A stretch of DNA of 64,000 bases from Burkholderiaceae bacterium (lineage in GTDB: Bacteria > Pseudomonadota > Gammaproteobacteria > Burkholderiales > Burkholderiaceae): NCBI GenBank assembly GCA_947450605.1, contig CANFWB010000001.1:42744-106743 (forward strand), written 5' to 3'. The notes under the pieces are model-generated. The model was not told the DNA's origin. It saw nothing but the letters and a program-made list of their open reading frames with translations, and made no database searches. Below are positions 21,944 through 51,192 of this stretch, one piece after another; positions within the stretch are counted from its first letter, which is position 1, and each line of letters starts with the position of its first letter. The position numbers and the translations under genes are program-made.

Positions 21944-22492
21944 ATGGCTCTACGCGCAACTATCCACAAAGCCGACGTCCACGTCGCAGACTCCGACCGC
22001 CACTATTACGGCAGTCACTCCCTCACCATCGCCAAGCATCCATCAGAAACTGAAGAGCGGATGATGGTTCGCATTATTGCCTTTGCCCTGCAAGCCCAAG
22101 AAGATTTGGCCTTTACTAAAGGCCTAAGCGATACGGATGAGCCAGATCTCTGGGTGAAGGATCTCACCGATGCCATTAAGCTCTGGATTGAAATTGGTCA
22201 GCCAGATGAGCGGCGTATCCTCAAAGCCTGTGGGCGATCTGATCAAGTGATCGTCTATTGCTATGGTGGACACACTAGCAAGATCTGGTGGGATGGCATT
22301 GCCAACAAGCTGACTCGTGCACGCAATCTCCAAGTCATCTCCATTCCGGCAGAGCAGGCCAAGGAACTCAATAAGTTAGTGGAACGCAGCATGGTTCTGC
22401 ATGTCAATATTCAAGATGGCGAAGCCTATGTATCTTCAGATATGGGCCAAGTCACCATCACCCCTGAGATTTGGCGCAGCCAGCAACAATGA
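21944..22492 (+). CDS. yaeQ: YaeQ family protein
   Basis: MALRATIHKADVHVADSDRHYYGSHSLTIAKHPSETEERMMVRI is typical YaeQ. Confidence 0.93.
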   Translation: MALRATIHKADVHVADSDRHYYGSHSLTIAKHPSETEERMMVRIIAFALQAQEDLAFTKGLSDTDEPDLWVKDLTDAIKLWIEIGQPDERRILKACGRSDQVIVYCYGGHTSKIWWDGIANKLTRARNLQVISIPAEQAKELNKLVERSMVLHVNIQDGEAYVSSDMGQVTITPEIWRSQQQ

Positions 22493-22905
22493 AGCCTGTA
22501 GTTTTAGACACCAATATCTTGCTCGATATTTTTGTCTTCAATGATGAAAGGGCTGTTGATCTAAAACAAGCAATTCTGGGGCGGCGTATTCAGGCTGTGG
22601 CTAGTCAGAAGACGCTTGCAGAATTTGCTGATGTTCTCTCGCGCCCTCTCTTTAAGCTTGATGAGGAAACTCAGTTGGCTATTCTGGCTCAATGGAAATC
22701 CAACGCACAGCAAGTGGACGATTCCAACTTGGCACCTGCGCCCTGGAAATGCCGAGATACAGATGATCAAATCTTTTTGGATTTAGCCTATCAACTCAGG
22801 CCCACGATACTGATTAGTAAAGACAATGCAGTACTCCAGCTCGCCAATCGAGCAGCTCCAGAAGGCATTCTCATTACCAGCGACTACCAAGCCTTCAAAC
22901 TGTAG
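22489..22905 (+). CDS. PIN-domain protein, putative toxin-like nuclease
   Basis: [14 protein letters not shown] and [14 protein letters not shown] motifs; ATGA overlap with yaeQ. Confidence 0.8.
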
Positions 22906-24187: not shown

Positions 24188-24391
24188 ATGACGGAAGATC
24201 GCATCACCAACCTTGAAATCAAGCTGAGCTTTACGGAAGATCTTATTGATCAACTCAATCAGACGATCTACAAGCAACAGCAGCAAATTGAATTTCTGTA
24301 TCGAGAACTGAAGTCGATCAAAGAACAGGCTAGCAGCGGGGATGGCGCAGGCAGCAATAACCCAAAAGATGAAATACCCCCACATTATTAA
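24188..24391 (+). CDS. slyX: SlyX family protein
   Basis: RITNLEIKLSFTEDLIDQLNQTIYKQQQQIEFL...PKDEIPPHY. Confidence 0.85.
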   Translation: MTEDRITNLEIKLSFTEDLIDQLNQTIYKQQQQIEFLYRELKSIKEQASSGDGAGSNNPKDEIPPHY

Positions 24392-24416: not shown

Positions 24417-24436
24417 TTATATCATTTTTGATATAA
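24417..24436. promoter_or_regulatory. perfect inverted repeat TTATATCA-TTTT-TGATATAA, probable TA operator
   Basis: 8-bp arms, 4-nt spacer, just upstream of the RelE-like/XRE pair. Confidence 0.6.
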
Positions 24437-24458
24437 TTTATGGACGACTAAATGGATC

Positions 24459-24775
24459 GTGCATACCTTAAATACCACGGTTGATTTAGAGCTCGAAGCA
24501 CTTCCAGCGGATATCAGAAGTCGCTTTATTAGAGTTTCCGGATTGATTGAGCAGTTTGGTCCTCGGGATGTTGGCATGCCTCATATCAAATCCTTAGGTG
24601 CTAAATTTTGGGAAATACGAATCTCTGGCAGGGATGGCATTGCAAGAGGCATTTATATTTATGCGAGTGGGAAAAAAATTATCGTACTGCATGTGTTTAT
24701 GAAAAAACACAGAAAACCCCATCTGCATCTTTAGCGATTGCCGAAAAAAGGGCCAAACAGGCAAATTTAATATGA
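24459..24775 (+). CDS. RelE/HigB-like (Gp49 family) toxin; GTG start; zero frame ends at 24734, conserved C-terminus lies in the -1 frame after an A6 run, ending at TGA 24773-24775
   Basis: ADIRSRFIRVSGLIEQFGP...MPHIKSLGAKFWEIRISGRDGIARGIYIY...IIVLHVFMKK, then KTQKTPSASLAIAEKRAKQANLI* in the -1 frame. Confidence 0.75.
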
Positions 24776-25077
24776 CGAAGATTTCCAATTTACATAAAAA
24801 GTGGATTAAAAATCCTGAGTATAAAAAGGCTTACGATGAATCTCGCGTGAAATTTGAAATTGCTCAAGAGGTGATCGAGGCGCGCATGAAACGTGGATTG
24901 TCCCAGGAAGAGCTGGCAGCACTCATGAGTACATCTCAATCTGCGATAGCCAGACTGGAAAGTGGTGCCGGACTACCATCACTGAGAACCTTAACAAAGC
25001 TTGCAGCAGCAACCAATACTCATATAGAAATTCACTTTAAGCCCATTAAAAATTCGAAGCAAAAATTAGCCGCCTAA
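24772..25077 (+). CDS. XRE family antitoxin (HigA-like)
   Basis: HTH: RMKRGLSQEELAALMSTSQSAIARLESGAGLPSLRTLTKLAAATN; start overlaps the -1-frame toxin stop (ATGA). Confidence 0.87.
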   Translation: MTKISNLHKKWIKNPEYKKAYDESRVKFEIAQEVIEARMKRGLSQEELAALMSTSQSAIARLESGAGLPSLRTLTKLAAATNTHIEIHFKPIKNSKQKLAA

Positions 25078-25141: not shown

Positions 25142-25489
25142 ATGGGTAACTTAGTACCGTTTTTAGTCCAATGGGGTTTAACCTCTTTATCCCTCTGGGT
25201 TGCCAGCTATCTGTTTAGCGGCCTACGTTTTGCGGATGGCGGATCATTGCTGATCGCAGCCCTGCTGCTTGGATTTGCCAATGCCATTGTCAAGCCATTA
25301 TTAATTCTGTTTACCTTGCCACTGACAGTCCTCACCATGGGATTGTTTTTGCTGGTTGTGAATGCCTTAGTACTGATGTTGGTTTCTGCAGTAGTCAGTG
25401 GCTTCTCAATCTCTAGCTTCTGGACAGCCTTCTTTGCCAGTATCTTTATTTCTTTATTCAGCTTATTTGTGAGCGGAATCCTGTTTTAA
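25142..25489 (+). CDS. phage holin family 4-like membrane protein
   Basis: MGNLVPFLVQWGLTSLSLWVASYLFSGLRFADGGSLLIAALLLGFANAIVKPLLILFTLPLTVLTMGLF. Confidence 0.8.
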   Translation: MGNLVPFLVQWGLTSLSLWVASYLFSGLRFADGGSLLIAALLLGFANAIVKPLLILFTLPLTVLTMGLFLLVVNALVLMLVSAVVSGFSISSFWTAFFASIFISLFSLFVSGILF

Positions 25490-35703: not shown

Positions 35704-35967
35704 GAGATATAAGGGTACTTTTGTATTGTGTCATTAATTTGATATTGCCGTGAGTCCAAAAAATCCTTTTTAAAGGCTGTTTGAGGCAAATACTGAGATG
35801 ACAGAATCAAACAATAAAACGACCTATAAAAAAAGGGGGTACACACCCTTTAATGAAAAGCACCCTACTTTCCAACTCAGCAGAAAATGACAATTTCAGA
35901 TACATTGGTCAGCTAATTGAATCAGCGCAATCACGAATTACCCCTTTAACTCACTACCAATTTTTAT

Positions 35968-36651
35968 ATGAATGATGGCGTCCCCCTCTCGGAAGTAATC
36001 CGCAAACGTATTAAGGCTAAAAAAGCACGCTTTCATGCCAACGACAATATTTCTGCCTTTATTCAGCCGGGGGAATTGGATGCCTTGGTAGAGGAAGTCT
36101 CCGAGAAAATGCAGGCCGTTTTAGAGAGCCTCGTGATTGATACAGAGAGTGATCACAACACCAAAAATACCAGCAAGCGGGTTGCCAAGATGTTTGTGAA
36201 CGAGGTTTTTAATGGTCGCTATGTGGAGCAACCTTCGCTGACAAAATTTCCCAATGTCAGCCACCTCAATGAGTTAATGATTATTGGCCCTATTACAGTC
36301 AGAAGCGCCTGCTCACACCATTTATGCCCAATCATGGGTAGGGTATGGATTGGGATACTGCCAGACAAGAACTCAGCCCTCATTGGACTGTCCAAATACT
36401 CCCGCCTCACCGAGTGGGTCATGTGTCGCCCGCAAATTCAGGAAGAGGCGGTTGTAGAGCTAGCGGATATGATTGAGAAAAAAGTGAAGCCAACGGGTGT
36501 TGCGATTGTGATGGACGCAGATCATTTCTGCATGCAGTGGCGAGGGGTGAAAGACTCAGACTCGAAGATGATCAATAGTGTAATGCGAGGCTCTTTCTTG
36601 AAAGACTCCAATTTGCGTCGAGAATTTTTATCACTGATTGAACGTCGCTAA
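35968..36651 (+). CDS. folE: GTP cyclohydrolase I
   Basis: TSKRVAKMFVNEVFNGRY, CSHHLCPIMGRVWIG, GLSKYSRLTEW. Confidence 0.92.
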   Translation: MNDGVPLSEVIRKRIKAKKARFHANDNISAFIQPGELDALVEEVSEKMQAVLESLVIDTESDHNTKNTSKRVAKMFVNEVFNGRYVEQPSLTKFPNVSHLNELMIIGPITVRSACSHHLCPIMGRVWIGILPDKNSALIGLSKYSRLTEWVMCRPQIQEEAVVELADMIEKKVKPTGVAIVMDADHFCMQWRGVKDSDSKMINSVMRGSFLKDSNLRREFLSLIERR

Positions 36652-36673
36652 TCAAGATCACCAAGAGCGTCCA

Positions 36674-37069
36674 ATGACATCAACGGCCTGTATAGAATTA
36701 AAAGATCTTCATCTGAATGTCCAAATTGGGACGTATGCTCCTGGGGCTACTATCCCCGACCGGCATCTACTGGATCTGACTTTATGGATTAACCCGAGAC
36801 TTATTTTGATCTCAGATGATCTGATGGATCGGGTATTTGATTACGATCCCCTCGTCATTGAAATTGATCGCTTGGCTGCCGATGGTCATTATGAGACCCA
36901 AGAAAGATTGGTCACTAGAATAGTTGAATCATGCGCTCGGTATACCGAAATTCAGTCTCTCGAAATTAGACTTAGTAAAACCCCCGTTCGGGAGGGTTCG
37001 GGCACACTAGGCATCAAGCTAGGTGTCGATGCAAATACCCTCACCAGCATGAGAGCAAGCAAAGCATAG
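36674..37069 (+). CDS. dihydroneopterin aldolase-like protein
   Basis: CIELKDLHLNVQIGTYAPGATIPDRHLLDLTLWI; next to folE. Confidence 0.75.
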   Translation: MTSTACIELKDLHLNVQIGTYAPGATIPDRHLLDLTLWINPRLILISDDLMDRVFDYDPLVIEIDRLAADGHYETQERLVTRIVESCARYTEIQSLEIRLSKTPVREGSGTLGIKLGVDANTLTSMRASKA

Positions 37070-37073
37070 GGGC

Positions 37074-37733
37074 TTAAGCTTCTTCCTGAAGAGCCTCAAC
37101 CAGATGGTCATACTTGAGAAAATTTTCACGATGCCTTCTATAGAATAAAAGCCCCTGATTCAGGCTGGCTACCGTGGCACCCTGCTCGCGCATTTTGTCC
37201 CAGAGATTCCAGTCCTCTTGTGGGTGCACGCCATCAACATACCTTCTTTTGTAGCCAACTTGCTGACCTAGGGCTGTGCGATACATCATCGAGCCATGGT
37301 GCTTTCCTTCTCGGTCCCAATATAAATCCCCTTGATGGGACTTAGTCTCGCCAGGAACGCGATCATGAATCTCTTCTTTTAACTCGCCAGTAACAACAAT
37401 GTCATAGGTAACAATGTCGGCACGAGCATTTGATAATAATTCAATCGCGTCAGATCTAAGCCAGTTATCAGCGCCTATGAAAAGAACATACTCCGTATCC
37501 ACCCTCATTAATACATCATGAAAGTTATCTACCGTCCCCAAATTATGGGATCGAAGAATGTATTCAATATCAGGATACAACCCAGGCAAGTGACCGCAAT
37601 CATGCGCGCCATCATCAACAAATACAATTCTGTTGGGTGCGAGCGTTTGGGATAGGAGGGATTCAATGCAGTGGGCTGCAAGGTGACCGTACTTATAAGA
37701 GGCAATAACGACAGTAATCATATTGCTGGGCAT
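37074..37733 (-). CDS. family 2 glycosyltransferase
   Basis: MITVVIASYKYGHLAAHCIESLLSQTLAPNRIVFVDDGAHD. Confidence 0.85.
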   Translation of the reverse strand: MPSNMITVVIASYKYGHLAAHCIESLLSQTLAPNRIVFVDDGAHDCGHLPGLYPDIEYILRSHNLGTVDNFHDVLMRVDTEYVLFIGADNWLRSDAIELLSNARADIVTYDIVVTGELKEEIHDRVPGETKSHQGDLYWDREGKHHGSMMYRTALGQQVGYKRRYVDGVHPQEDWNLWDKMREQGATVASLNQGLLFYRRHRENFLKYDHLVEALQEEA

Positions 37734-37855
37734 TAGACCATGAAATCATGATGCCTGAATGAAGCCCCGCTTTAAACCCCGCAAATACCCATACGCCCTT
37801 ACAAATAACCCACTTTCTCCTCCAACCCGCGTGATCGAAAAAGACAAATACAGAA

Positions 37856-38527
37856 TTATTTTTTATCGAAGTCTTTACTCTGCAAAAAATGATACTTCTG
37901 TAATTTTCTTGCCTCATCCATACGCATTCCCTCTCGAATATTTTTCCTCACAATATTTTCCTTGGCGGTAATTTCTTCTGCGTAAGTGAGAACTTGTTCC
38001 TGCATTTGACTTGGGATGACTACGACACCATCCGGATCGCCGCAAATGAGATCCCCAGGAATCACATTGACACCCCCGATCTGAATTGGCACCTGCAATC
38101 CAGCCAACTGAATCCGACCCTTGCCCGTTCTCATCCAATATCCACTACTATAGATTGGGTAGTTTAATTGGCGACATAAAGAGACGTCCCGATTAATACC
38201 GTCGATTACCGTGCCCGCCACCTTCCTCTGGTGCGCCATCTCCGTAAGTATGTTTCCCCACGTAGTCATATCATCGCGTCCACGATTATCAATTGCAATC
38301 ACGCTACCTGGAGGAACATCGTCAATATATTCTCCAACGTTGCCGTCTTCATCAAAATTCGCTGGACGATATAAAACAGTGTATGCATGCCCAACCATAC
38401 GGAAGTTAGGATCACAAGCTGAAATTTTGTAGCATTGACCATTGATTCCCGACCGATCCAGTGCGTCACTAATGGCTGCACAATCGAGTCGCTTGGCTCT
38501 TTCGATAAATTGATTTCCTGCGTCCAT
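37856..38527 (-). CDS. RraA family protein / HMG aldolase-like
   Basis: GSVIAIDNRGRDDMTTWGNILTEMAHQRKVAGTVIDGINRDV. Confidence 0.88.
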   Translation of the reverse strand: MDAGNQFIERAKRLDCAAISDALDRSGINGQCYKISACDPNFRMVGHAYTVLYRPANFDEDGNVGEYIDDVPPGSVIAIDNRGRDDMTTWGNILTEMAHQRKVAGTVIDGINRDVSLCRQLNYPIYSSGYWMRTGKGRIQLAGLQVPIQIGGVNVIPGDLICGDPDGVVVIPSQMQEQVLTYAEEITAKENIVRKNIREGMRMDEARKLQKYHFLQSKDFDKK

Positions 38528-38550
38528 ATTCTAAATACCTTTAATAAGAT

Positions 38551-39543
38551 TTAATCGACTGTAATATTTGCGGTCTTAATGACCTTAGACCAATACTGAA
38601 TATCCTTCCGTACCACGGAGTCAAACTGCGCTGAATTCATGTACCGCAACTCAACACCGGATTTCTCAAGCGCTAATTTCACCTGAGGATTCTGAAGCGT
38701 AGTGCGAGCCGCCTCATTTAACGCTGAAACAATTGCCGGTGAAGTGGCGCTCGGAGCGAATATTCCAATCCATGCCTCTAGTTCAAACCCAGGAAAACCT
38801 GCCTCTGCTGAGGTTGGTACATCAGGCATTTGCGGAATACGTTTTTTAGCTGCCACTGCTAATGCCCTCATTTTTCCTTGCTGCACAAATTGCATCAAAG
38901 AGGGAGGAGTTGCCACTGTCATTTGGACGTTACCAGCAATCACATCAAGCATGGCTGGTCCAGCCCCGCGATAGGGAACATGGGTAATATTCAACTGATT
39001 TTGCTGCTTAAAGAGTTCTACGCCTATGTGGGGCACCGAACCATTTCCTGATGTTGCATAGTTGAGTTTTGCTGGATTGGCTTTTGCATAAGCCACAAGC
39101 TCCTGCAAAGTCGTTGCAGGCACGGAGGGGTTAACCGCCAACACATGAGGAGATACAACCAACATGCTTACCGGTGAAAAATCTCTGATTGGATCCCACG
39201 ATAGATTGGAATACATGGATGGGTTCCCTACGTGAAACATTGAATAACCCAAAAGCAATGTGTAACCATCCGGAGCTGACTTAGCCACTGCAGTCGCCGC
39301 AATATTGCCTCCGGCACCCGTTTTATTTTCAATCACAATTGGCTGCCCCAAAATTTTGGTCATCTCAGGCGCTATCATCCGAGCCACTGCGTCAAGTATT
39401 CCCCCGGGAGGAACGGGCACGACTAAAGTAATCGGCTTATCCGGATATGCCGCAGATACCTGCATCGCAATTGCACTGAATCCCATTAGAAGAAGTCTAT
39501 TTAGTCTCATTTGCTGTCTCATTTTTTTTAATTTATTTAGCAC
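38551..39543 (-). CDS. Bug family tripartite tricarboxylate transporter substrate-binding protein
   Basis: YPDKPITLVVPVPPGGILDAVARMIAPEMTKILGQPIVIENKTGAGGNIA. Confidence 0.93.
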   Translation of the reverse strand: MLNKLKKMRQQMRLNRLLLMGFSAIAMQVSAAYPDKPITLVVPVPPGGILDAVARMIAPEMTKILGQPIVIENKTGAGGNIAATAVAKSAPDGYTLLLGYSMFHVGNPSMYSNLSWDPIRDFSPVSMLVVSPHVLAVNPSVPATTLQELVAYAKANPAKLNYATSGNGSVPHIGVELFKQQNQLNITHVPYRGAGPAMLDVIAGNVQMTVATPPSLMQFVQQGKMRALAVAAKKRIPQMPDVPTSAEAGFPGFELEAWIGIFAPSATSPAIVSALNEAARTTLQNPQVKLALEKSGVELRYMNSAQFDSVVRKDIQYWSKVIKTANITVD

Positions 39544-39853
39544 AGCATATATTAAATTACAGAAGCTCTCAGAGTGGCAAGTTCAACTTAAAAATGCAAG
39601 AATTGGGAGTAAGGGGTATATAAAAATCGCACCCAATGGGGCGGGAATGGATTTCGGAAAATAGCGGGGAGCATGGGATTCGAGCCTGTGATAATTTTGA
39701 CCCCAACCCCACTTCGAGACTTCAGCATTTCCCATCCAAATAAATCAACTAGCAACTTGAAATACCCGCACCCCAAGGAATTTTTTAATGAGGATGATTA
39801 ACCGACCCTTTGGAAGAACCCCCTTTGGCTAAATAACTCCCAAGGATAGTCGT

Positions 39854-41692
39854 TTAACTGGAGTGCTCTAGACTTTCCTGAATGACTTTCATAAAGTGCT
39901 CGCCATAGCGCTCCAACTTGGCTTGCCCCACCCCACCAATACGACTGAAGTGATCCAAGGTAGTGGGAGTGGACTTCACCATCTCCTGCAGTGTGCTGTC
40001 ATGAAAAATCACATAGGGTGGCACCCCTTGTTCGCGTGCCAGCTCAGTACGTTTAGTCTTAAGCGCCTCCCACAGGTTTTCATCAGCGATATTACTAAAG
40101 GGATGTGTAGAGCCCTTCTTGGCCCCAGACTTCGTAGCCTTGCTCTTGGAATAGCCCGTTTCTTTGCGCAGCCAAACCTCTTGCTCGCCGCGCAGCACGG
40201 GCAAGGCAATGTTATCTACCAGCTTTAAGCCGCCATGCAATGCAATATCAGCATCTAAATAACCGCCCGCTACCAATTGACGATAAATGCTATTCCACTG
40301 CGCCTGATTAAGTTCAGCGCCAATACCAAACGTACTTACTTGCTCATGAAAGTATTGCTTCACCCTAGGAGTCACTTTGCCCAACAGCACATCAATTAAA
40401 TGGGTCACACCAAAGCGCTGGCCGGTACGGTACACACATGACAATGCTTTTTGCACTTCGTGCGTGGCATTCCAAGTGGCTACTGGCTCTAAACAGTTAT
40501 CGCAGTGACCACAGCTACCTGGATGCGCCTCTCCAAAGTAACGCAAAATCGTTTGATGGCGGCAGGACGTGGATTCACAATAGCCTAGCAGCGCATTGAG
40601 TTTTTGCCGCTCTACCCGCTTACGGTCTTCAGAAGCTTCTCCTGAATCTACCATTTGCCGCAAACTCACCACATCCCCAAACCCATAAGCCATCCAAGCA
40701 TTTGCGGGTAAGCCATCGCGGCCTGCCCGTCCAGTTTCTTGGTAATACCCTTCCATACTTTTGGGCAGATCTAGATGCGCTACAAAGCGGACATTAGGCT
40801 TATCAATACCCATACCAAATGCTACAGTCGCGACCATGATGACGCCCTCTTCACGTAAGAAGCGTTTTTGATTGGCACTGCGTGTTTCCACACTTAAACC
40901 TGCGTGATACGGCATAGCATCCCACCCGCGGTCCTTTAACCATTGCGCAGTTTCATCTACGCTGCGACGCGATAGGCAATAAATAATTCCTGAGTCATCG
41001 GCATGCTCGGCATGTAAAAAGTGCTCTAACTGTTGTTTAGCGCTCTGCTTTTGCAGAACGCGATACTTAATATTGGGACGATCAAAACTAGAGACAAACT
41101 GCTTGGCAGATTCTAGCGAAAGGCGCTCCACAATTTCTGCTCGGGTTGGGGCATCCGCGGTAGCAGTTAGAGCGATACGCGGCACATTAGGAAAGCGCTC
41201 GTGCAACACCGTGAGCTGGCGATATTCTGGGCGGAAATCATGGCCCCATTGCGAAACGCAATGCGCTTCATCAATAGCAAATAATGCAATGCCAGGGCCT
41301 GAATTCAGTCTATCGAGCATTGATAGAAAACTAGAATTCATCAGACGTTCTGGCGCCACATAGATCAAGTCCAAATTTCCAGCCAACAATTGACTGGTCA
41401 CCTTTTGAGATGTAGCCGCATCCAGACTAGAGTTTAGAAATGAAGCCTTTACGCCCAGTTGGGTTAAAGCGTCCACTTGATCCTGCATCAGTGCAATTAA
41501 AGGTGACACTACTACCCCGACGCCGCGACGAACAAGTGAAGGAATTTGATAGCAGAGCGACTTACCGGCGCCGGTAGGCATGAGGACCAAGGCATCCCCG
41601 CCTGCTACTACATGCCCAACAATAGACTCTTGAGCACCCCGAAATTGATCAAAGCCAAAAACATCATGAAGTACTTGGTGGCTCGATTGCAA
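39854..41692 (-). CDS. recQ: ATP-dependent DNA helicase RecQ
   Basis: [36 protein letters not shown]-terminal HRDC-like region. Confidence 0.96.
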
Positions 41693-41730
41693 CAGTCATG
41701 CTCCTTTGTATTACAAACTACGTACAAATA

Positions 41731-41758
41731 AAAAGCCCCACGTCATGCGGGGCTCTTT
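41731..41758 (-). terminator. GC-rich stem-loop with T-run on the minus strand
   Basis: Minus strand GAGCCCCGCATGACGTGGGGCTTTTT. Confidence 0.65.
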
Positions 41759-41882
41759 CAATATTTTCTCTGTAGATACAAATACAGAGTCTGGTTAGCG
41801 GAGAGGGGCCAGATTAGCTGGGGATAGCATTCCATCCTTCAATTGCTGTTGAGTTTTGAATAGTTAGCGCTTCTTCCGCATA

Positions 41883-42209
41883 CTAAGCACCCATCTCTTT
41901 GCCGATCTCATTATAAAACTTAAAAGTCAGCGGCGTAGGAGCAAGATACTTCACGCGCTTATCGGTTGGATCTTCATTGAGCTTGAGTAATTTTTGCGCG
42001 ATCAAGCCCTTCATGGTTTTATGGATAGTGGCAGGTGAAGCAATCTGCGACATATCAATGAGTTCGCGAACTTTAATTGGGGTATTTTGTAAGTGGGATT
42101 GGGTAACGACTCTTAAAATTTTGCATTTTTTTTCATCCATGCCATATTTAGCATGAATTTTTTCTTTCTTATTTGCAAAATTCAAAAATTTAGATACTAA
42201 GGCAACCAT
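41883..42209 (-). CDS. MarR-like winged-helix DNA-binding protein
   Basis: EKIHAKYGMDEKKCKILRVV...MSQIASPATIHKTMKGLIAQKLLKLNEDPTDKRVKYL. Confidence 0.7.
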   Translation of the reverse strand: MVALVSKFLNFANKKEKIHAKYGMDEKKCKILRVVTQSHLQNTPIKVRELIDMSQIASPATIHKTMKGLIAQKLLKLNEDPTDKRVKYLAPTPLTFKFYNEIGKEMGA

Positions 42210-42442
42210 GCCCCCCCCTAATTGACTGCGTAATAAATTCTAGTCCAAAGCCAATGGATATAGTGGATTCATTATGAACTTTAGGGCAATACAGAATTAA
42301 AAAATAGAATGATTACGCTACTTTAACTCACTAAATTACAGCTAAAAATACCGCAAGATGGGGCTAATTACTGAGGCTTTTCAGCAATTGTCTAAAAATA
42401 ATGATAAATTTAGTAATCTTATAAAAAAAATAACTATATATC

Positions 42443-42670
42443 ATGCTCTCATTTCTAAAAGACCTCCTTTTTCCCGCCCACAGTGCATTTGTCATAGAGG
42501 AGCTGGACCACCTCCGCAAAGTGGTGGTGGTAGAAGACAAGCACTTGGGCTTGCGAATAGAAATCCCGACGGGAGATAAGCACTTAAAGAAAGCGGAAAT
42601 CATCGGCCCCTACCAATTGCTGATGACCTATCACGACGGTAGCACTATCAAAAAGCGCATCCTCAAATAG
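42443..42670 (+). CDS. hypothetical small protein
   Basis: 75-aa ORF; no recognisable family. Confidence 0.4.
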   Translation: MLSFLKDLLFPAHSAFVIEELDHLRKVVVVEDKHLGLRIEIPTGDKHLKKAEIIGPYQLLMTYHDGSTIKKRILK

Positions 42671-43050
42671 AAAGTACTCTCAGTCTTTGCCAAGGCCGAA
42701 CTCAAACTCAAGAAGGTATTGAGGTAAAGATGAAGTGCAGATTTTGAAAAACTACCAGCAGCCTCAATAGCGTGACTCTGTAGGGCTCATTCGTTTTTTC
42801 TCCGTATGCACGAAATATCGAGACTAGCTGGCGGAGAGATCGCGATTTGAGCCCTCAGTAGAGTTAGACTCCCACCTCTACAGCATGGCTTTATGCACCG
42901 GTATAGCCAACTTTTATTCATTAAAAACAATAACTTATGAATATTTTGCCAATTCAGAATTGCCTTATGTGGGCTTATGTTGACTCAGTAATGCAATCGC
43001 ATTACCATTGGTAATATGAATTCCCTTCTCACATTTCAAGGGGCACAACC

Positions 43051-43383
43051 ATGAATACTGCCGTACTCGAAGCTGAATCTACCCTCACAGATCGTTACCA
43101 AACCACCGTCCCCGAGCCTATTCGCCAAGTCTTGAAACTCGGCAAGCGCGATAAGGTCCACTACGCTATTTTGGACAATGGAGATGTGCTGATGAGTCGC
43201 GGGCAAAAGGCTGGGTCTGATGATCCAGCGCTTGGAAACTTCCTCCATTTTTTATCTCAAGATCTCGCAGCACATCCCGAGCGTTTACAAGCGCTTGATA
43301 GTGCCTGGGTTGAGCGCTTGCAATCATTAGTGGGAAATGTGCAGTTTGATTTAGATGCACCCCTACCTGATGATGAGGCTTAA
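43051..43383 (+). CDS. prlF: PrlF/SohA-family antitoxin
   Basis: AbrB-like N-terminus ESTLTDRYQTTVPEPIRQVLKLGKRDKVHYAI; followed by YhaV-like gene. Confidence 0.88.
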   Translation: MNTAVLEAESTLTDRYQTTVPEPIRQVLKLGKRDKVHYAILDNGDVLMSRGQKAGSDDPALGNFLHFLSQDLAAHPERLQALDSAWVERLQSLVGNVQFDLDAPLPDDEA

Positions 43384-43874
43384 TTATTTCCATAAAGTCA
43401 TCACCACTCATCATTGCCGGCTGGACCATCTTCGCCCATCCTTTATTTCTTACTCAAGTTCAAGCGCTAACTAATGAAGTAGAAGCGCTCAAGCAAAAGC
43501 ATCCCGCTACTTATCAAAACAAAAATGTAACCAAACGATTGGCTGCGATTTTAAAACTCGCCAATGAAGTCATTCCACAAGATCCCACCCTCCCCCTATA
43601 TCGACAAGGCAATACCCTTGGCGAAGATCATAAGCACTGGTTAAGAGCGAAGTTCTTTCAGCAATATCGATTGTTTTTTCGTTACCACGAGGCAAGCAAA
43701 ATCATTGTGTATGCCTGGGTCAACGATGAGGATACTAAGCGTGCTTATGAAAGTAAGCATGATGCTTACCAAGTATTTTCAAAAATGCTAAAACAAGGTC
43801 ACCCACCAGATGATTGGGAATCGCTGGTAAAAGAAGCCAAAGCAAAATCGCATCAACTTACTCGCATCAAATAA
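43383..43874 (+). CDS. yhaV: YhaV-family toxin (start uncertain: no ATG/GTG/TTG for conserved N-terminus; ATT at 43383 or 43386 possible)
   Basis: GWTIFAHPLF...VEALKQKHPATYQNKNVTKRLAAIL...WLRAKFFQQYRLFFRYHEASKIIVYAWVNDEDTKRAYESKHDAYQVFSKMLKQGHPPDDWESL. Confidence 0.82.
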   Translation: MISIKSSPLIIAGWTIFAHPLFLTQVQALTNEVEALKQKHPATYQNKNVTKRLAAILKLANEVIPQDPTLPLYRQGNTLGEDHKHWLRAKFFQQYRLFFRYHEASKIIVYAWVNDEDTKRAYESKHDAYQVFSKMLKQGHPPDDWESLVKEAKAKSHQLTRIK

Positions 43875-44095
43875 GCTAATTACTGAATTGGGTGGGCATG
43901 ACCCTTTCATGATGGTGCGACATTGCGACTTAAGCGCGTGCAAACCTACCGTAAAAAATGGCTACTAAGAAAAGAAGGTAAATTCCCTAGATGGTTATGT
44001 ATATATGGGTAATAGAAAAACTAGAATAGGCACGAGGCCCATAGCACGCGGGGCTTCATAAAAAATATCCATATAAATCAATAACTTATATACTG

Positions 44096-44187
<92 letters not shown>

Positions 44188-44248
44188 GTACCCTTGATTC
44201 AAATGACTGTAGCCAGCACTACATCATAAACGATAGGAATTGAGGAGC

Positions 44249-44899
44249 TTATTCTGCTTTGGCCAGTCGATCTACCACTCTGCGGGACACATTATGAAGC
44301 CAAGGGTTGGCATTCCAGTGCGCCTGGGCAAAATGATCAATCTGATTTTGATGTTTCAATGTGAGACCAATCACGTCTAGACCCTCCAAGAACATCTGAA
44401 GATGCCTTGGCGACATGGAAAATGTGAACTGATGTTTTGGCGTGCGCACAACCCCATTCTCAATATCAATATCCAACTGAATGGGGCCGAATGCATCATC
44501 AGCCTCTTTCATTAAAGCCTGCACCTGATCTTCTGGCAACACGATCAGCAGCAAGCGATTGCCCATGGCATTGGAATAAAAAATCTCCGCAAAGCTTGAG
44601 GCAATCACTGCCTTAAAACCGTACTGCTGCATCCCCCAAACGGCATGCTCGCGACTAGATCCACACCCATAATTTGGGCCTGCAAGCAACACATCGGTTA
44701 AAGCGTAGGCGGGCTGATTTAAAAAGAAGTCTGACTTTAACTTTCCCTCTTCATCAAAGCGTAAGTCATAAAAAAGCCCATCCTTGAGGCCAGACTTATC
44801 TATACCGCGCAAAAACTGCTTCGGCATTACCTGATCGGTATCGAAATTAGCAATGCGCAAAGGTGCAGCATGCCCTTGAATCATAGTTTGATGAGACAT
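44249..44899 (-). CDS. 3-isopropylmalate dehydratase small subunit-like (LeuD family)
   Basis: FDTDQVMPKQFLRGIDKSGLKDGLFYDLRF, GPNYGCGSSREHAVWGMQQYGFKAVIASSFAEIF. Confidence 0.88.
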   Translation of the reverse strand: MSHQTMIQGHAAPLRIANFDTDQVMPKQFLRGIDKSGLKDGLFYDLRFDEEGKLKSDFFLNQPAYALTDVLLAGPNYGCGSSREHAVWGMQQYGFKAVIASSFAEIFYSNAMGNRLLLIVLPEDQVQALMKEADDAFGPIQLDIDIENGVVRTPKHQFTFSMSPRHLQMFLEGLDVIGLTLKHQNQIDHFAQAHWNANPWLHNVSRRVVDRLAKAE

Positions 44900-44912
44900 T
44901 GATATCGCCTTC

Positions 44913-46316
44913 TTATAACTTACGGACGTCGGTAATTTTTCCAGTAATCGCTGCAGCTGCAGCCATCGCTGGACTCATGAGATGGGTAATTGCTCCTCGA
45001 CCTTGACGCCCCTCAAAATTACGATTCGTGGTTGACGCACAGCGCACTCCTGGTGCGAGCACATCATCATTCATAGCAAGACACATCGAGCAACCTGGGT
45101 TGCGCCACTCAAAGCCAGCGGAAATGAGGATATCAGCAATACCCTCCGCCTCAGCCTGCTCTTTAACCGCCCCGGAGCCAGGCACCACCATTGCGCGAAT
45201 ACCTTTGGCCACTTTTCGATCGCCAATCACCTTGACAACACTTCTCAAATCCTCAATGCGGCCATTTGTGCAAGACCCAATAAATACATGCTGAATTGGA
45301 ACGCCCTCAAGCGTTTGCCCAGCTTGTAATTTGGTGTATCGCAATGCCTGCTCAAGGCTTAAATTTTCAACGGGGTCGGAAAATGAATTCATAAGAGGCA
45401 AAGGGGAACCAATCGCCACCGTTTGATCGGGGCTTGTACCCCAAGTGACATGCGGGGCAACAGCACTGGCATCAAATTGATGCTCAATATCAAATTGGGC
45501 ATCTTGATCAGACTTCAAGCCAGCCCAATACGTGACAGCCTGATCTCTAATCTCACCCGTAATATCTACAGCACGCTGTAATACATAATTTACGGCAGTT
45601 TGATCGGGGGCAATTAATGCACCGCGAGCTCCAGCCTCAACCGCCATATTGCATAAAGTAAAGCGAGCTTCAATACTCAGCGCCTCGATAGCGCTTCCAC
45701 AAAATTCAATGACGCAACCGATTGCACCCTTAGCCCCGATTTTGCCAATAATCATCAAGATCAAATCTTTCGATGTACTACCCATCGGCAAAACACCGTT
45801 GACGGTAATTCTCATATTTTTAGCAAGGCGGTAAACCAAGGTCTGAGTTGCCAGCACATGCTCAACCTCTGATGTCCCAATTCCAAAACCTAAAGTCCCC
45901 AATGCACCATAGGTCGTAGTGTGACTATCTCCGCAAATCACCACCATGCCCGGCCTAATCATTCCGTGCTCTGGTGACACCACATGTTCAATACCTTGCA
46001 GGGCATCGTTCGTGTCAAATATGGGGATCAGATATTTATCGCAATTTTTCTTTAGACTCAGCGCCTGCAATGCCGATGCCGGATCAGCAATAATCCTTGG
46101 AGAAGTATGGTGCGTTGGAATGATGTGACTGACCACCGCCACATTCTGACCGGGAACGGGAACTGTATATCCTTTTTCTTTTAAGCCTGCAAAGGCTTGT
46201 GGACTTGTGTATTCATTCATTAAATGCAAGTCACAAAAGAGCAATACGTTCTCTTGATCCAATACGGTGACCGTATGCGCATCAACCAATTTCTGATACA
46301 AGGTTTTTGCAGTCAT
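44913..46316 (-). CDS. 3-isopropylmalate dehydratase large subunit-like (LeuC family)
   Basis: VICGDSHTTTYGALGTLGFGIGTSEVEHVLATQ, IGSCTNGRIEDLR, NPGCSMCLAMNDD. Confidence 0.9.
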   Translation of the reverse strand: MTAKTLYQKLVDAHTVTVLDQENVLLFCDLHLMNEYTSPQAFAGLKEKGYTVPVPGQNVAVVSHIIPTHHTSPRIIADPASALQALSLKKNCDKYLIPIFDTNDALQGIEHVVSPEHGMIRPGMVVICGDSHTTTYGALGTLGFGIGTSEVEHVLATQTLVYRLAKNMRITVNGVLPMGSTSKDLILMIIGKIGAKGAIGCVIEFCGSAIEALSIEARFTLCNMAVEAGARGALIAPDQTAVNYVLQRAVDITGEIRDQAVTYWAGLKSDQDAQFDIEHQFDASAVAPHVTWGTSPDQTVAIGSPLPLMNSFSDPVENLSLEQALRYTKLQAGQTLEGVPIQHVFIGSCTNGRIEDLRSVVKVIGDRKVAKGIRAMVVPGSGAVKEQAEAEGIADILISAGFEWRNPGCSMCLAMNDDVLAPGVRCASTTNRNFEGRQGRGAITHLMSPAMAAAAAITGKITDVRKL

Positions 46317-46372
46317 ATCAGATCTCTGAAGTAGTTAGGGATGTTGTTGAACTCAAAGACACTCTCATGAAA

Positions 46373-47341
46373 TTAGTTATCCACCTTGATTCCGGCCTTA
46401 GCAATCACATTGCCCCAGAGGTTGTATTCCTTTTTCATATAAGCAGCCATTTCATCGGGGGATGAGGGGGTAGGATCCAGACCTTGCATAATTAACTTCT
46501 CCCGAATTTGCGGATCTCGCAGGGCCTTATTAATGGCAGTATTGAGCTTATTCACGATGGCAGGCGGCATTTTAGGTGGGGCAATAAAGGCATACCAATT
46601 GGCAGCCTCGTAGCCCGGGTAACCCAACTCCGCTATCGTAGGTACATTTGGCAAAGCCTTTGAGCGCTGACGACTGGTTACTGCCAATGCATCCACTTTC
46701 CCAGACTCAATCAATTGCTTTGCGGTAATAATTGTTGCAAACAAAGATGGCACCGTACCGCCCAGCAAATCATTAATTGCAGGACCTCCACCGCGATAAC
46801 CAATATGCATTAATTTTATTTTGGCCGTTGCAGCGAATAGCTCTCCCGCTAAATGACCACCACTACCAGCGCCTGAGCTACCGTAAGCCAAACCGCCCGG
46901 TGTTTTTTCTGCAATAGCAACATACTCAGCCAGCGTTTTTGCCTTGAGAACCTGAGGATTGACGATCAAAGCATTACCTGAAGATACCCCCAACCCAAGC
47001 GGAGTGAGATCTTTTAATGGGTCATAACCTAGTTTGTAAATGTGTGGGCTATAAGCTAAGGGTCCCACTGAACTCAACATAATCAGATAGCCATCAGGGG
47101 TTGCTTTTGAAATGACATCCGTAGCAATGTTGCCGCCAACTCCGGGTTTATTTTCAATGACGACGGGCTGCCCCAATTCCTTGGATACATAAGGAGCAAT
47201 AATTCTGGCTGCAATATCCGTACCGCCACCAGGCGCAAATCCAACATACAGGCGGATGGGTCTTGAGGGATAAGCCTCTTCTGCATACCCCTGCAAAGAG
47301 AAGCAACACAGCAAGAAAAGAGCAATGGATTTAATGGTCAT
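46373..47341 (-). CDS. Bug family tripartite tricarboxylate transporter substrate-binding protein
   Basis: YPSRPIRLYVGFAPGGGTDIAARIIAPYVSKELGQPVVIENKPGVGGNIA. Confidence 0.93.
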   Translation of the reverse strand: MTIKSIALFLLCCFSLQGYAEEAYPSRPIRLYVGFAPGGGTDIAARIIAPYVSKELGQPVVIENKPGVGGNIATDVISKATPDGYLIMLSSVGPLAYSPHIYKLGYDPLKDLTPLGLGVSSGNALIVNPQVLKAKTLAEYVAIAEKTPGGLAYGSSGAGSGGHLAGELFAATAKIKLMHIGYRGGGPAINDLLGGTVPSLFATIITAKQLIESGKVDALAVTSRQRSKALPNVPTIAELGYPGYEAANWYAFIAPPKMPPAIVNKLNTAINKALRDPQIREKLIMQGLDPTPSSPDEMAAYMKKEYNLWGNVIAKAGIKVDN

Positions 47342-47391
47342 GATGATCTCAAATAGGGGTCAAGGGAATTAGATCTCGGATTAGCCAGGAA

Positions 47392-48342
47392 CTAAGCAAT
47401 AAAAGATCGAATGGCTTTATAAATTAAATCGGGGCGCTCTTCCTGCGGGTAATGCCCCGTAGGAATATCGGTACCCTCAAGATCGTCGGCCCACTTACCC
47501 CAAGCTGCCAATGGCGTAAAGTGTCTTCCACAGTGACTGTTGCTTCCCCATAGAACCATAACTGGGCAGGTAATTTTCTTATTGCTTGCCAAGTCGGCGG
47601 TATCCATTTCCAAATCAATGGATACCGTGGCGCGATAGTCCTCGCAAATCGCATGTATTTGCTCCGGCGTAGTGCAGCGGGCATATTCTGCCAAAGCTTC
47701 AGGGGCAAATATTTTTAAGCCAACGCCTTTTTTATTCAGCTTGTAGTTGATGTAGTAATTCAAGTCCCCGCATATTAAGCGCTCTGGGAAAGGCTCTTTT
47801 TGTGCCATGAAAAACCAATGATAGGACTCAAGCCCCCACCCCATCGTGACATTATTCAAGACTTCATGGGTTGGCACGATATCCAAAGGAATGAATTTCG
47901 TTACTACCTCAGGGTGATCCAAGCACATCCTGAAGCCCACACGCGCACCTCGATCATGCCCAACTACAGGAAATGTTGAGAAGCCTAGCTGCGCCATGAC
48001 CTTCACGGCATCATTGGCCATCGTCCGAAACGAGTACTCCGAGTGGTCGCCGCCGCCCAAGGGCTTATCGCTATCGCCATAGCCGCGTAGATCAATTGCA
48101 ACCACCGTAAAGTGCTTAGCCAAGGTTGGGGCAACCTTATGCCAGGTCACATGGGTCAGCGGATTGCCATGAATTAATAAGAGGGGTGGTCCACTACCAC
48201 CAATAACACCATTGATGTTGACACCATCCCCCGGTAATTTGAAAGACTTAAAGCCTTCCATTAAGTTTGCATTATGCGGAATGAGTGGATCAAACTCTAA
48301 AGACTCAATATCAGCAGGAGTATGAATTTTTTTTCTAGTCAC
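47392..48342 (-). CDS. alpha/beta hydrolase, haloacetate dehalogenase-like
   Basis: LRGYGDSDKP, VVGHDRGARVGFRMCLDHP, SYHWFFMAQKEPFPERLI, CEDYRATVSIDLEMD, TGHYPQEERP. Confidence 0.82.
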   Translation of the reverse strand: MTRKKIHTPADIESLEFDPLIPHNANLMEGFKSFKLPGDGVNINGVIGGSGPPLLLIHGNPLTHVTWHKVAPTLAKHFTVVAIDLRGYGDSDKPLGGGDHSEYSFRTMANDAVKVMAQLGFSTFPVVGHDRGARVGFRMCLDHPEVVTKFIPLDIVPTHEVLNNVTMGWGLESYHWFFMAQKEPFPERLICGDLNYYINYKLNKKGVGLKIFAPEALAEYARCTTPEQIHAICEDYRATVSIDLEMDTADLASNKKITCPVMVLWGSNSHCGRHFTPLAAWGKWADDLEGTDIPTGHYPQEERPDLIYKAIRSFIA

Positions 48343-48353
48343 GATGCTCTCTC

Positions 48354-49361
48354 TTACTTATTTTTTCTTGCAGTAGCCAAATTGGCAATCACATCAAAAG
48401 CCCTTTTCATGGCGCCAACGTCTGCAATACCTTTGCCAACAATGTCATAGGCGGTGCCATGGGAAGGCGTGGTGTATAGGGTTTTAAGGCCACCCGTTAG
48501 AGTGACGCCCTCAGAAAAACCGAGCAACTTGGTGGCAATTTGCCCCTGGTCGTGATACATGATGACGACTGCATCAAAATCCCCTGCACGCGCTTTTAAG
48601 AAAACTGTGTCTGATGGAAATGGACCTTCGCATGGCAGATTTTCTGCGCGCAATCTATCTAAGGTCGGCCGAATAATTTCAATCTCTTCCATGCCAAATA
48701 GACCACCCTCTCCATTGTGAGGATTTAGGGCTGCCACTCCAATTCGGGGCTGCGTCTTTCCAAGGCCACGCATAGTCTCATGAGCCAAGCGCAAGGCACC
48801 TTCAATTCTTTCGGGAATAACCAGATCAACGGCTTGACGTAGGCTCACGTGAGAAGTGACACGGAAAGTGCAAAACAGTTTGATTAAATTCACTTCGCCG
48901 TAATAGCCCTCATGATCATTCCACTTGGCAAACATTTCATGCTCATCCCGATACTTCCAGCCGCCTTTATTTAATGCGCCCTTATTCAGTGGCGCAAAGC
49001 AAACTGCATCAATTTTTCCAGCGTGAACCATATCGGTCATCACTTTTAAGGTTTCTCCAGTGAGTCGACCCGACTCGATTGAAGTCAAGCCACGCTCAAT
49101 TAAGCTCGGATCAATATTGTGTAAATCGATCATCTGAATTCCAGGCTTAGACCAATCGACAGAATCGACATCCTCCACCACATTGACTGTCAACTGAATA
49201 TTGGCATCAGCCATACCGAGTTCAAGAACCCTTCGATCCCCAACCACCAAAACCCGAGACTTCTCATGCGTCATCGGATCAGCTAGCAGCTTCACGGCAA
49301 CCTCCGGGCCAATACCGGTTACATCACCCAACATTAGGCCAACAATTGGCTTTTGACTCAT
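48354..49361 (-). CDS. PdxA/PdxA2-like 4-hydroxythreonine-4-phosphate dehydrogenase family protein
   Basis: KPIVGLMLGDVTGIGPEVAVKLL, CFAPLNKGALNKGG, GVAALNPHNGEGGLFGMEEIEIIRP, MYHDQGQIATKLLGF; likely start MSQKP. Confidence 0.88.
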   Translation of the reverse strand: MSQKPIVGLMLGDVTGIGPEVAVKLLADPMTHEKSRVLVVGDRRVLELGMADANIQLTVNVVEDVDSVDWSKPGIQMIDLHNIDPSLIERGLTSIESGRLTGETLKVMTDMVHAGKIDAVCFAPLNKGALNKGGWKYRDEHEMFAKWNDHEGYYGEVNLIKLFCTFRVTSHVSLRQAVDLVIPERIEGALRLAHETMRGLGKTQPRIGVAALNPHNGEGGLFGMEEIEIIRPTLDRLRAENLPCEGPFPSDTVFLKARAGDFDAVVIMYHDQGQIATKLLGFSEGVTLTGGLKTLYTTPSHGTAYDIVGKGIADVGAMKRAFDVIANLATARKNK

Positions 49362-49502
49362 GGAATACCCTTCAGTGAAATAGTTATTCAAATATTTGCC
49401 ACCCAAATACAGCAGCAATTGTGCGGATTTTCTTCATACTAACTGATGAAATTGAGTTTATAGTTAACATTTATTTACAACTTTAGTTACTTAAACTTAA
49501 CT

Positions 49503-50411
49503 ATGAATCAATTCTCAGATATCGCTTTTTTCTCGCTCCTCATTAAAAAAGGTGGCCTCAATAGCGCGGCCCAAGAAATGGGGGTGACACCCCCAGCCGT
49601 CAGTAAGCGCCTCTCCAATCTTGAGGCACGACTCGGCGTGAGACTACTCAATAGAACCACTCGGCGCATTAGCCTAACCCCTGAGGGTGATATCTACCTG
49701 ATAGAGGGAGGCAAGGTACTGAATGACCTTGAAGCTCTGGAGCAATCGATAGCAGGAAGCAAAGTCACTCCAAAGGGAACCATTCGTATCGGCGCAACTC
49801 TGGGATTTGGTCGAAGGTACATTGCGCCAGCACTATCTAAATTTGCTGGCACCTATAAAGATGTTGAGATTCAACTTCACCTTACGGATAAGCCAATTAA
49901 TGCCCTTGAACAAGATATCGATTTATTTATTCATTTCGGCAACTTGCCGGATACAAGGCTGACCTCTCGGATTCTGATCCCCAATAAACGCATTCTTTGC
50001 GCATCCCCCAAATATCTCCAAAGGAATAGTGCACCTCAAACCCCTAAGGATCTAGCTCAACATCAATGCATCTTTCTCAGGGAGAGCAATGAAACGTTCG
50101 GAACCTGGCACTTACACTCTGGCAATAAGCATGAGACGATTAAAGTGCGAGGGCAGCTGACCACCAATGATGGGGAATCAGCCACTGCATGGGCGCTGGA
50201 AGGTCATGGAATTTTATTGCGATCCGTTTGGGAGATTAATCCTCACTTACAGTCAGGCAAACTACAGCAAATACTCGCTGACTGGGACTTGCCATCAGCA
50301 AATATCTCGCTTGTTCTTCCAGAAAAAAAGAATATGTCTGCCGCAGTGCGCGCATTGGTTGATTTTTTAGTGGAAAGCTTTAAAGATTCATCTCTCCATA
50401 AAACAAAATAG
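49503..50411 (+). CDS. LysR family transcriptional regulator
   Basis: GGLNSAAQEMGVTPPAVSKRLSNLEARLGVRLLNRTTRRISLTPEG. Confidence 0.94.
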   Translation: MNQFSDIAFFSLLIKKGGLNSAAQEMGVTPPAVSKRLSNLEARLGVRLLNRTTRRISLTPEGDIYLIEGGKVLNDLEALEQSIAGSKVTPKGTIRIGATLGFGRRYIAPALSKFAGTYKDVEIQLHLTDKPINALEQDIDLFIHFGNLPDTRLTSRILIPNKRILCASPKYLQRNSAPQTPKDLAQHQCIFLRESNETFGTWHLHSGNKHETIKVRGQLTTNDGESATAWALEGHGILLRSVWEINPHLQSGKLQQILADWDLPSANISLVLPEKKNMSAAVRALVDFLVESFKDSSLHKTK

Positions 50412-50433
50412 CCCCGAAAGCACGCTTAAAGAA

Positions 50434-51174
50434 TTATCTAAACGCCATCACGATAATTAAGATGCCGGATGTCAGCATGACTAGCTCCATCAATTGCAAA
50501 AATTGTTTTTCGGAAAGCGTCAGAACAATTTTTTTAGAAAAAATAGAGCCAATCAATACGAACGAGCCAATCAACAAACCTTGAACTATGGCAGTGGAGT
50601 CCAGCAATCCAAGCCGATGGAATACGATGCCCTTGGTAAATAAGATGGCTAAAGTGCTAGTAGCCTCCGTACCAAGGAAGGCCCCCTTACTTAAGCCGTA
50701 GGCCAAGAAGAATGGCGTGTTGATAGCGCCGGTAGTGGCAACAATACCGGTGAGATAGCCAATAAATAGCCCGACAAGCGCCATATGCCATAAGCGCAAA
50801 ACAAAATTTTGCTTGCGCATCCAACGCCTTACCGGAATAAGGGCAATCAGAAAAGTACCGAGTATGAGTTGTACTAAAGTCTCGTTGAGAGACACCAGCG
50901 TGTTAGCTCCCAAGGCAACGGCGGGGATAGCAGTCAAGCTATAAACCAAGCAGGCCTTCCAATCAATCACTCGCCACCACAAAAAAACTCGAGATAGATT
51001 CGCTACAGTCGCGGTAATTGCCATCACTGGAATGGCTTCAATGGGCCCATAAAAATACACCAGTGCAGGCATCAGAATAATGGCAGTTCCAAATCCAATC
51101 ACACCACCAAAAATTCCAGCAAGGAAGCCCAGAAAACCTAAAACGACACTAGCCAAGATTATTTCAAACATCAT
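50434..51174 (-). CDS. TauE/SafE family sulfite/organic-acid exporter-like permease
   Basis: FLAGIFGGVIGFGTAIILMPALVYFYGPIEAIPVMAITA; multi-TM. Confidence 0.88.
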   Translation of the reverse strand: MMFEIILASVVLGFLGFLAGIFGGVIGFGTAIILMPALVYFYGPIEAIPVMAITATVANLSRVFLWWRVIDWKACLVYSLTAIPAVALGANTLVSLNETLVQLILGTFLIALIPVRRWMRKQNFVLRLWHMALVGLFIGYLTGIVATTGAINTPFFLAYGLSKGAFLGTEATSTLAILFTKGIVFHRLGLLDSTAIVQGLLIGSFVLIGSIFSKKIVLTLSEKQFLQLMELVMLTSGILIIVMAFR

Positions 51175-51192
51175 TGCATTTAAATTGAATAG

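Follow-up and report, generated by a model that had tools for sequence, protein, structure and literature searches.

Probable recent loss of a Gp49/HigB-type toxin, with its antitoxin retained, at a Polynucleobacter-type locus

HigBA of S. pneumoniae and HigB1/HigB-TAC of M. tuberculosis are toxin-antitoxin (TA) systems in which the toxin gene comes first, the toxin has a Gp49 domain and the antitoxin an HTH_3 domain; toxin-then-antitoxin is also the order described for Gp49 modules (PMC11980606; PMC5906591). Catalysis and tRNA contact in HigB-TAC involve loop residues K95, Q98 and K99 as well as helix residues K113 and R117; toxicity is abolished or strongly reduced by the substitutions K95A, K99A and K113A (PMC9098466). 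Loci with a broken toxin and an intact antitoxin have also been described: a parE pseudogene is known from Caulobacter, and a yacB toxin gene with a frameshift from Shigella (PMC7354431). Our literature search found nothing specific on TA loci of Polynucleobacter. The locus analyzed here is like the HigB systems in gene order and domains, and like the Caulobacter and Shigella loci in that its toxin is frameshifted and its antitoxin intact.

The DNA analyzed, referred to as the window, is a 64,000-nucleotide stretch from a freshwater, metagenome-assembled, Polynucleobacter-type genome (1.95 Mb, 86 contigs, 82% complete). The locus lies on the forward strand between slyX (24188-24391) and a holin-superfamily-IV-like gene (25142-25489). 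A Gp49/HigB-type toxin remnant of 91 aa is read in the zero frame from GTG 24459 to the stop at 24732-24734 (24459-24734). An ATG (24699-24701) directly precedes the A6 run (24702-24707) at which comparison with relatives places the frame break, and the remainder of the toxin, TQKTPSASLAIAEKRAKQANLI*, is read in the -1 frame (24707-24775). The TGA of this frame (24773-24775) overlaps the ATG (24772-24774) of an intact 101-aa HTH_3 (XRE/HigA-type) antitoxin (24772-25077) as ATGA. The locus thus has the make-up of a TA module, a Gp49 toxin upstream of an overlapping HTH antitoxin, and on re-reading the window sequence all coordinates of the first-pass annotation were found to be correct.

Against the Pfam Gp49 family (PF05973, gathering cut-off 23.9), the zero frame scores 72.3 bits over profile positions 2-76 of 90 and the -1 read-through 93.7 bits over positions 2-90, a gain of 21 bits; both readings are above the cut-off. 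As the match reaches the end of the profile once the -1 tail is included, the likeness of the C-terminus is not due to chance. These scores bear out the earlier assignment of the toxin as Gp49/HigB-like and, together with the intact relatives described below, the earlier claim that the -1 frame is the ancestral one. An NCBIfam search with the toxin returned no named family. A structure model of the intact toxin from the closest relative (G083; mean pLDDT 75) contains a strand (78-87), a loop and a helix (94-106), and its best Foldseek matches are S. pneumoniae HigB (6af3, 6af4; TM 0.74-0.77) and M. tuberculosis HigB1/HigB-TAC (7awk, 7nbu). The intact toxin therefore has the same fold as 6af3 and 6af4, but identity to the solved HigB members is only about 24%, and the toxin of the window is broken. 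Elsewhere in the same assembly we observed a second, distant Gp49-type gene (L002, G000:C3:15715-15939) whose open frame spans 107 aa.

F85, K87 and K88 are still present in the zero-frame product, which then ends in HRKPHLHL, and the TQKTP loop (Q90, K91, T92, P93) and the C-terminal helix are absent from it. In a weak profile alignment to HigB-TAC (E 0.4-0.5), Q90 and K91 of the genus pair with Q98 and K99, and the segment missing in the window includes the counterparts of these two residues and of helix 3. Because these residues and the helix are missing from the zero-frame product, the toxin of the window is predicted to have lost its toxicity.

A survey of 186 genomes of the genus found 22, the window's own included, with an orthologue of the antitoxin; among the other genomes its identity is 60-97%. 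The toxin is complete in 17 of the 22, where it is 110 aa long, begins at one and the same ATG and has the active-site loop and helix 3 that the toxin product of the window lacks. None of these 17 requires a frameshift, and all of them show the ATGA overlap with the antitoxin, which upholds the coupling proposed in the first-pass annotation. The locus lies between slyX and the holin-like gene in all intact relatives except G028. The A6 run, which had been marked for checking in sister genomes, is not conserved: the closest intact relative by toxin identity (G083, 90%) has A7 at the break site, most others have AAGAAG/AAAAAG or similar, and both run length and composition vary.

The comparison also revealed two lesions upstream of the frame break that had escaped the first-pass annotation. 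The toxin ATG of 17/17 intact relatives is ACG in the window (24444-24446), and GTG 24459, for which no strong start site was seen in the sequence, is a fallback start only. Upstream of the toxin, intact loci carry a tandem TATATCA-TTTTTGACA-TATATCA-ATAT-TGATATAA of two units with a 16-bp period; the window has one 16-bp unit fewer and a single perfect palindrome remaining, TTATATCA-TTTT-TGATATAA (24417-24436, forward strand; chance expectation in the window 0.02). The window has a single copy of this palindrome, and a search of the whole assembly found no other; such a distribution would fit an operator private to this locus, and the palindrome may be the operator that the antitoxin binds. 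A -10-like TATAAT (24432-24437, forward strand), also present in relatives, is retained beside the toxin start position, and transcription could begin from this element near the ancestral start codon.

We consider it likely that the locus is a type II TA locus that recently lost toxin function and was left with an autoregulated orphan antitoxin. Ancestrally it would have been a chromosomal, toxin-first locus whose toxin, by its Gp49/HigB-type family, would be a ribosome-dependent mRNase and whose XRE-type antitoxin would repress its own locus at the palindromic operator. On this reading, and in a putative order, the toxin start codon became ACG, the A run lost one base, which makes any product end in HRKPHLHL without the conserved Q-K-T-P loop and helix, and the tandem operator shrank to a single unit. 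Expression of the antitoxin probably continues from the -10 region that remains, although its translational coupling to the toxin is gone. A frameshifted toxin locus of this sort is ordinary gene decay of a common kind, and the frameshift itself matters little.

The age of the break was approached by counting codon changes private to the window lineage among ten close genomes, where about 74% of random changes would be non-synonymous under neutrality. The zero-frame toxin body has 3 amino acid and 15 synonymous private changes (P ~3e-7 under neutrality), the -1 tail has 3 and 6 (P ~0.01), and the antitoxin has 1 and 22. The mostly synonymous changes in the -1 tail imply that it was read as protein during most of the history of the lineage, and purifying selection in both frames means that the break is recent, or an error, or somehow bypassed. 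Changed codons are denser in the tail (9 of 21) than in the body (18 of 83), a difference that is suggestive (P 0.057). The same data also weigh against a recent loss: if selection lasted until recently, two inactivating lesions within a short time need explaining. In addition, translation could begin at GTG 24459 in place of the missing ATG, in which case the one-base indel, itself possibly an assembly error, would be the sole hard lesion.

Three explanations of the break had been offered at first pass: a sequencing error, a recent inactivating mutation and slippage. Recent inactivation is supported by the lost start codon, by four other breaks of the same toxin described below and by the unconserved A run, while slippage did not stand up and a sequencing error is possible but not favored. 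In the last case, the A run would be misread in a metagenome-assembled genome and the toxin would be truly intact, starting at GTG 24459. The fragmented, 82% complete genome, the one-base homopolymer difference and the purifying selection in both frames fit such an error, but the change of start codon and the loss of 16 bp from the operator are not homopolymer errors, and an isolated error would have had to hit the one gene that also lacks its start codon. Furthermore, a relative assembled as a single contig (G014) breaks the same toxin independently. We also screened 464 kb of the assembly against about 1.3 Mb of G083, and of the 176 shared ORFs nine were flagged, with the toxin the sole frameshifted gene; on inspection the other eight had over-extended starts or ends or were spurious overlapping ORFs. 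One frameshift in 176 shared ORFs rules out an assembly that is error-ridden in general and makes a careless one unlikely. Given this evidence, we regard an error confined to the A run as unlikely.

Ribosomal -1 or transcriptional slippage on A6 would yield some full-length toxin and thereby control its dosage. In favor of this, the -1 frame has no stop before the one in the ATGA coupling and has accumulated mostly synonymous changes, and overlapping frames meet at an A run here as they do in dnaX and IS elements (PMC1088944, PMC5009743). Unlike in those genes, the run is too short, in the wrong phase, without a stimulator and unconserved. The efficient slippery heptamer in E. coli is A_AAA_AAG (PMC5009743), whereas the zero frame at the site reads ATG AAA AAA CAC; its phase, G AAA AAA CAC, offers no efficient X_XXY_YYZ heptamer, and a tandem shift would put the P-site tRNA on GAA, so the site is not A_AAA_AAG-like. 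RNA downstream of A6 folds no better than shuffled sequences (z 0.18), indicating that a stimulatory structure is absent there. On phase, RNA folding and non-conservation together, we rejected programmed -1 frameshifting. Transcriptional slippage in bacteria is generally linked to A or T runs about nine long, in some cases eight (PMC1088944), by which standard A6 is too short; runs of six or more number 107 in the window alone. Neither run length and composition nor the overlapping frames are conserved, the 17 intact relatives need no shift, and the toxin start codon is lost as well. Slippage as a source of full-length toxin is thus very improbable. Indels described for viruses as 'savior' indels provide a model for a related reading, in which the contraction is a regulatory allele and rare slippage on a nearly silent gene would supply trace toxin that tunes the antitoxin operon; we consider this, too, highly unlikely.

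It is also conceivable that the zero-frame 91-aa product is expressed and useful as such, for example as a non-toxic co-repressor that binds the antitoxin. Its body is well conserved and the operator palindrome is retained, but recent loss explains the conservation equally well, truncation of the toxin at this point is seen in none of the relatives, translational coupling is lost and the sequence shows no strong start site for GTG 24459. We therefore give this proposal very little credence.

The preferred reading, recent inactivation of the toxin, gains from what has happened at the same locus elsewhere in the genus. The antitoxin is full length (101 aa) in 22/22 genomes, and in four lineages besides that of the window the toxin is non-functional and the antitoxin kept. 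In G014 (L021/L051) the toxin carries an indel in another A run, while its sister G071 is intact. In G086 an internal deletion has left only the first toxin codons and the start ATG is GTG. The toxin of G081 (L055) is wholly deleted, and a one-unit operator, as in the window, stands directly before the antitoxin. In G063 the promoter and most of the toxin are deleted from the N-terminal side, leaving a C-terminal remnant. In a tree built from the slyX, antitoxin and holin-like genes, whose deep nodes are weakly supported, the five loss lineages are separate tips; G014, G086 and G063 each lie beside an intact sister, and G081 and the window form isolated branches. Five independent toxin losses stand against no antitoxin loss (sign test, 0.06), which is the bias to be expected if the two genes work as a TA pair, and the window locus itself combines a disrupted toxin with a full-length, conserved antitoxin.

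The antitoxins of two of these lineages were also examined for codon changes. That of G063 differs from that of its sister G114 by 18 synonymous and 2 amino acid codons, on a branch along which the toxin loss is undated; this hints that the antitoxin may still be constrained after toxin loss. Private changes in the G081 antitoxin number 8 amino acid and 12 synonymous, with the toxin loss likewise undated on the branch. Unlike the Caulobacter and Shigella precedents, the present case offers five losses of one syntenic locus that can be compared across a genus. One-sided loss of the toxin, five times and by different lesions, is a more useful part of these results than the frameshift, since with it one can test directly, in freshwater bacteria that can be cultivated, why an orphan antitoxin is kept. 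Candidate reasons for retention are anti-addiction, self-regulation and too little time.

Two further regions of the window were noted. A PIN-domain protein (PF13470, PF01850) is encoded at 22489-22905, with no obvious antitoxin partner adjoining; the copy in G083 is 75% identical. Apart from tRNA-Ser(cga) at 44098-44187, the segment from 35704 to 51190 (~15 kb) is unmatched at the DNA level in the corresponding G083 region. It contains genes that, from their translations, we take to be leuC/leuD-like, TctC-like receptor, pdxA-like and hydrolase-type genes, and it probably represents sequence surrounding a tRNA that is variable or specific to the lineage.
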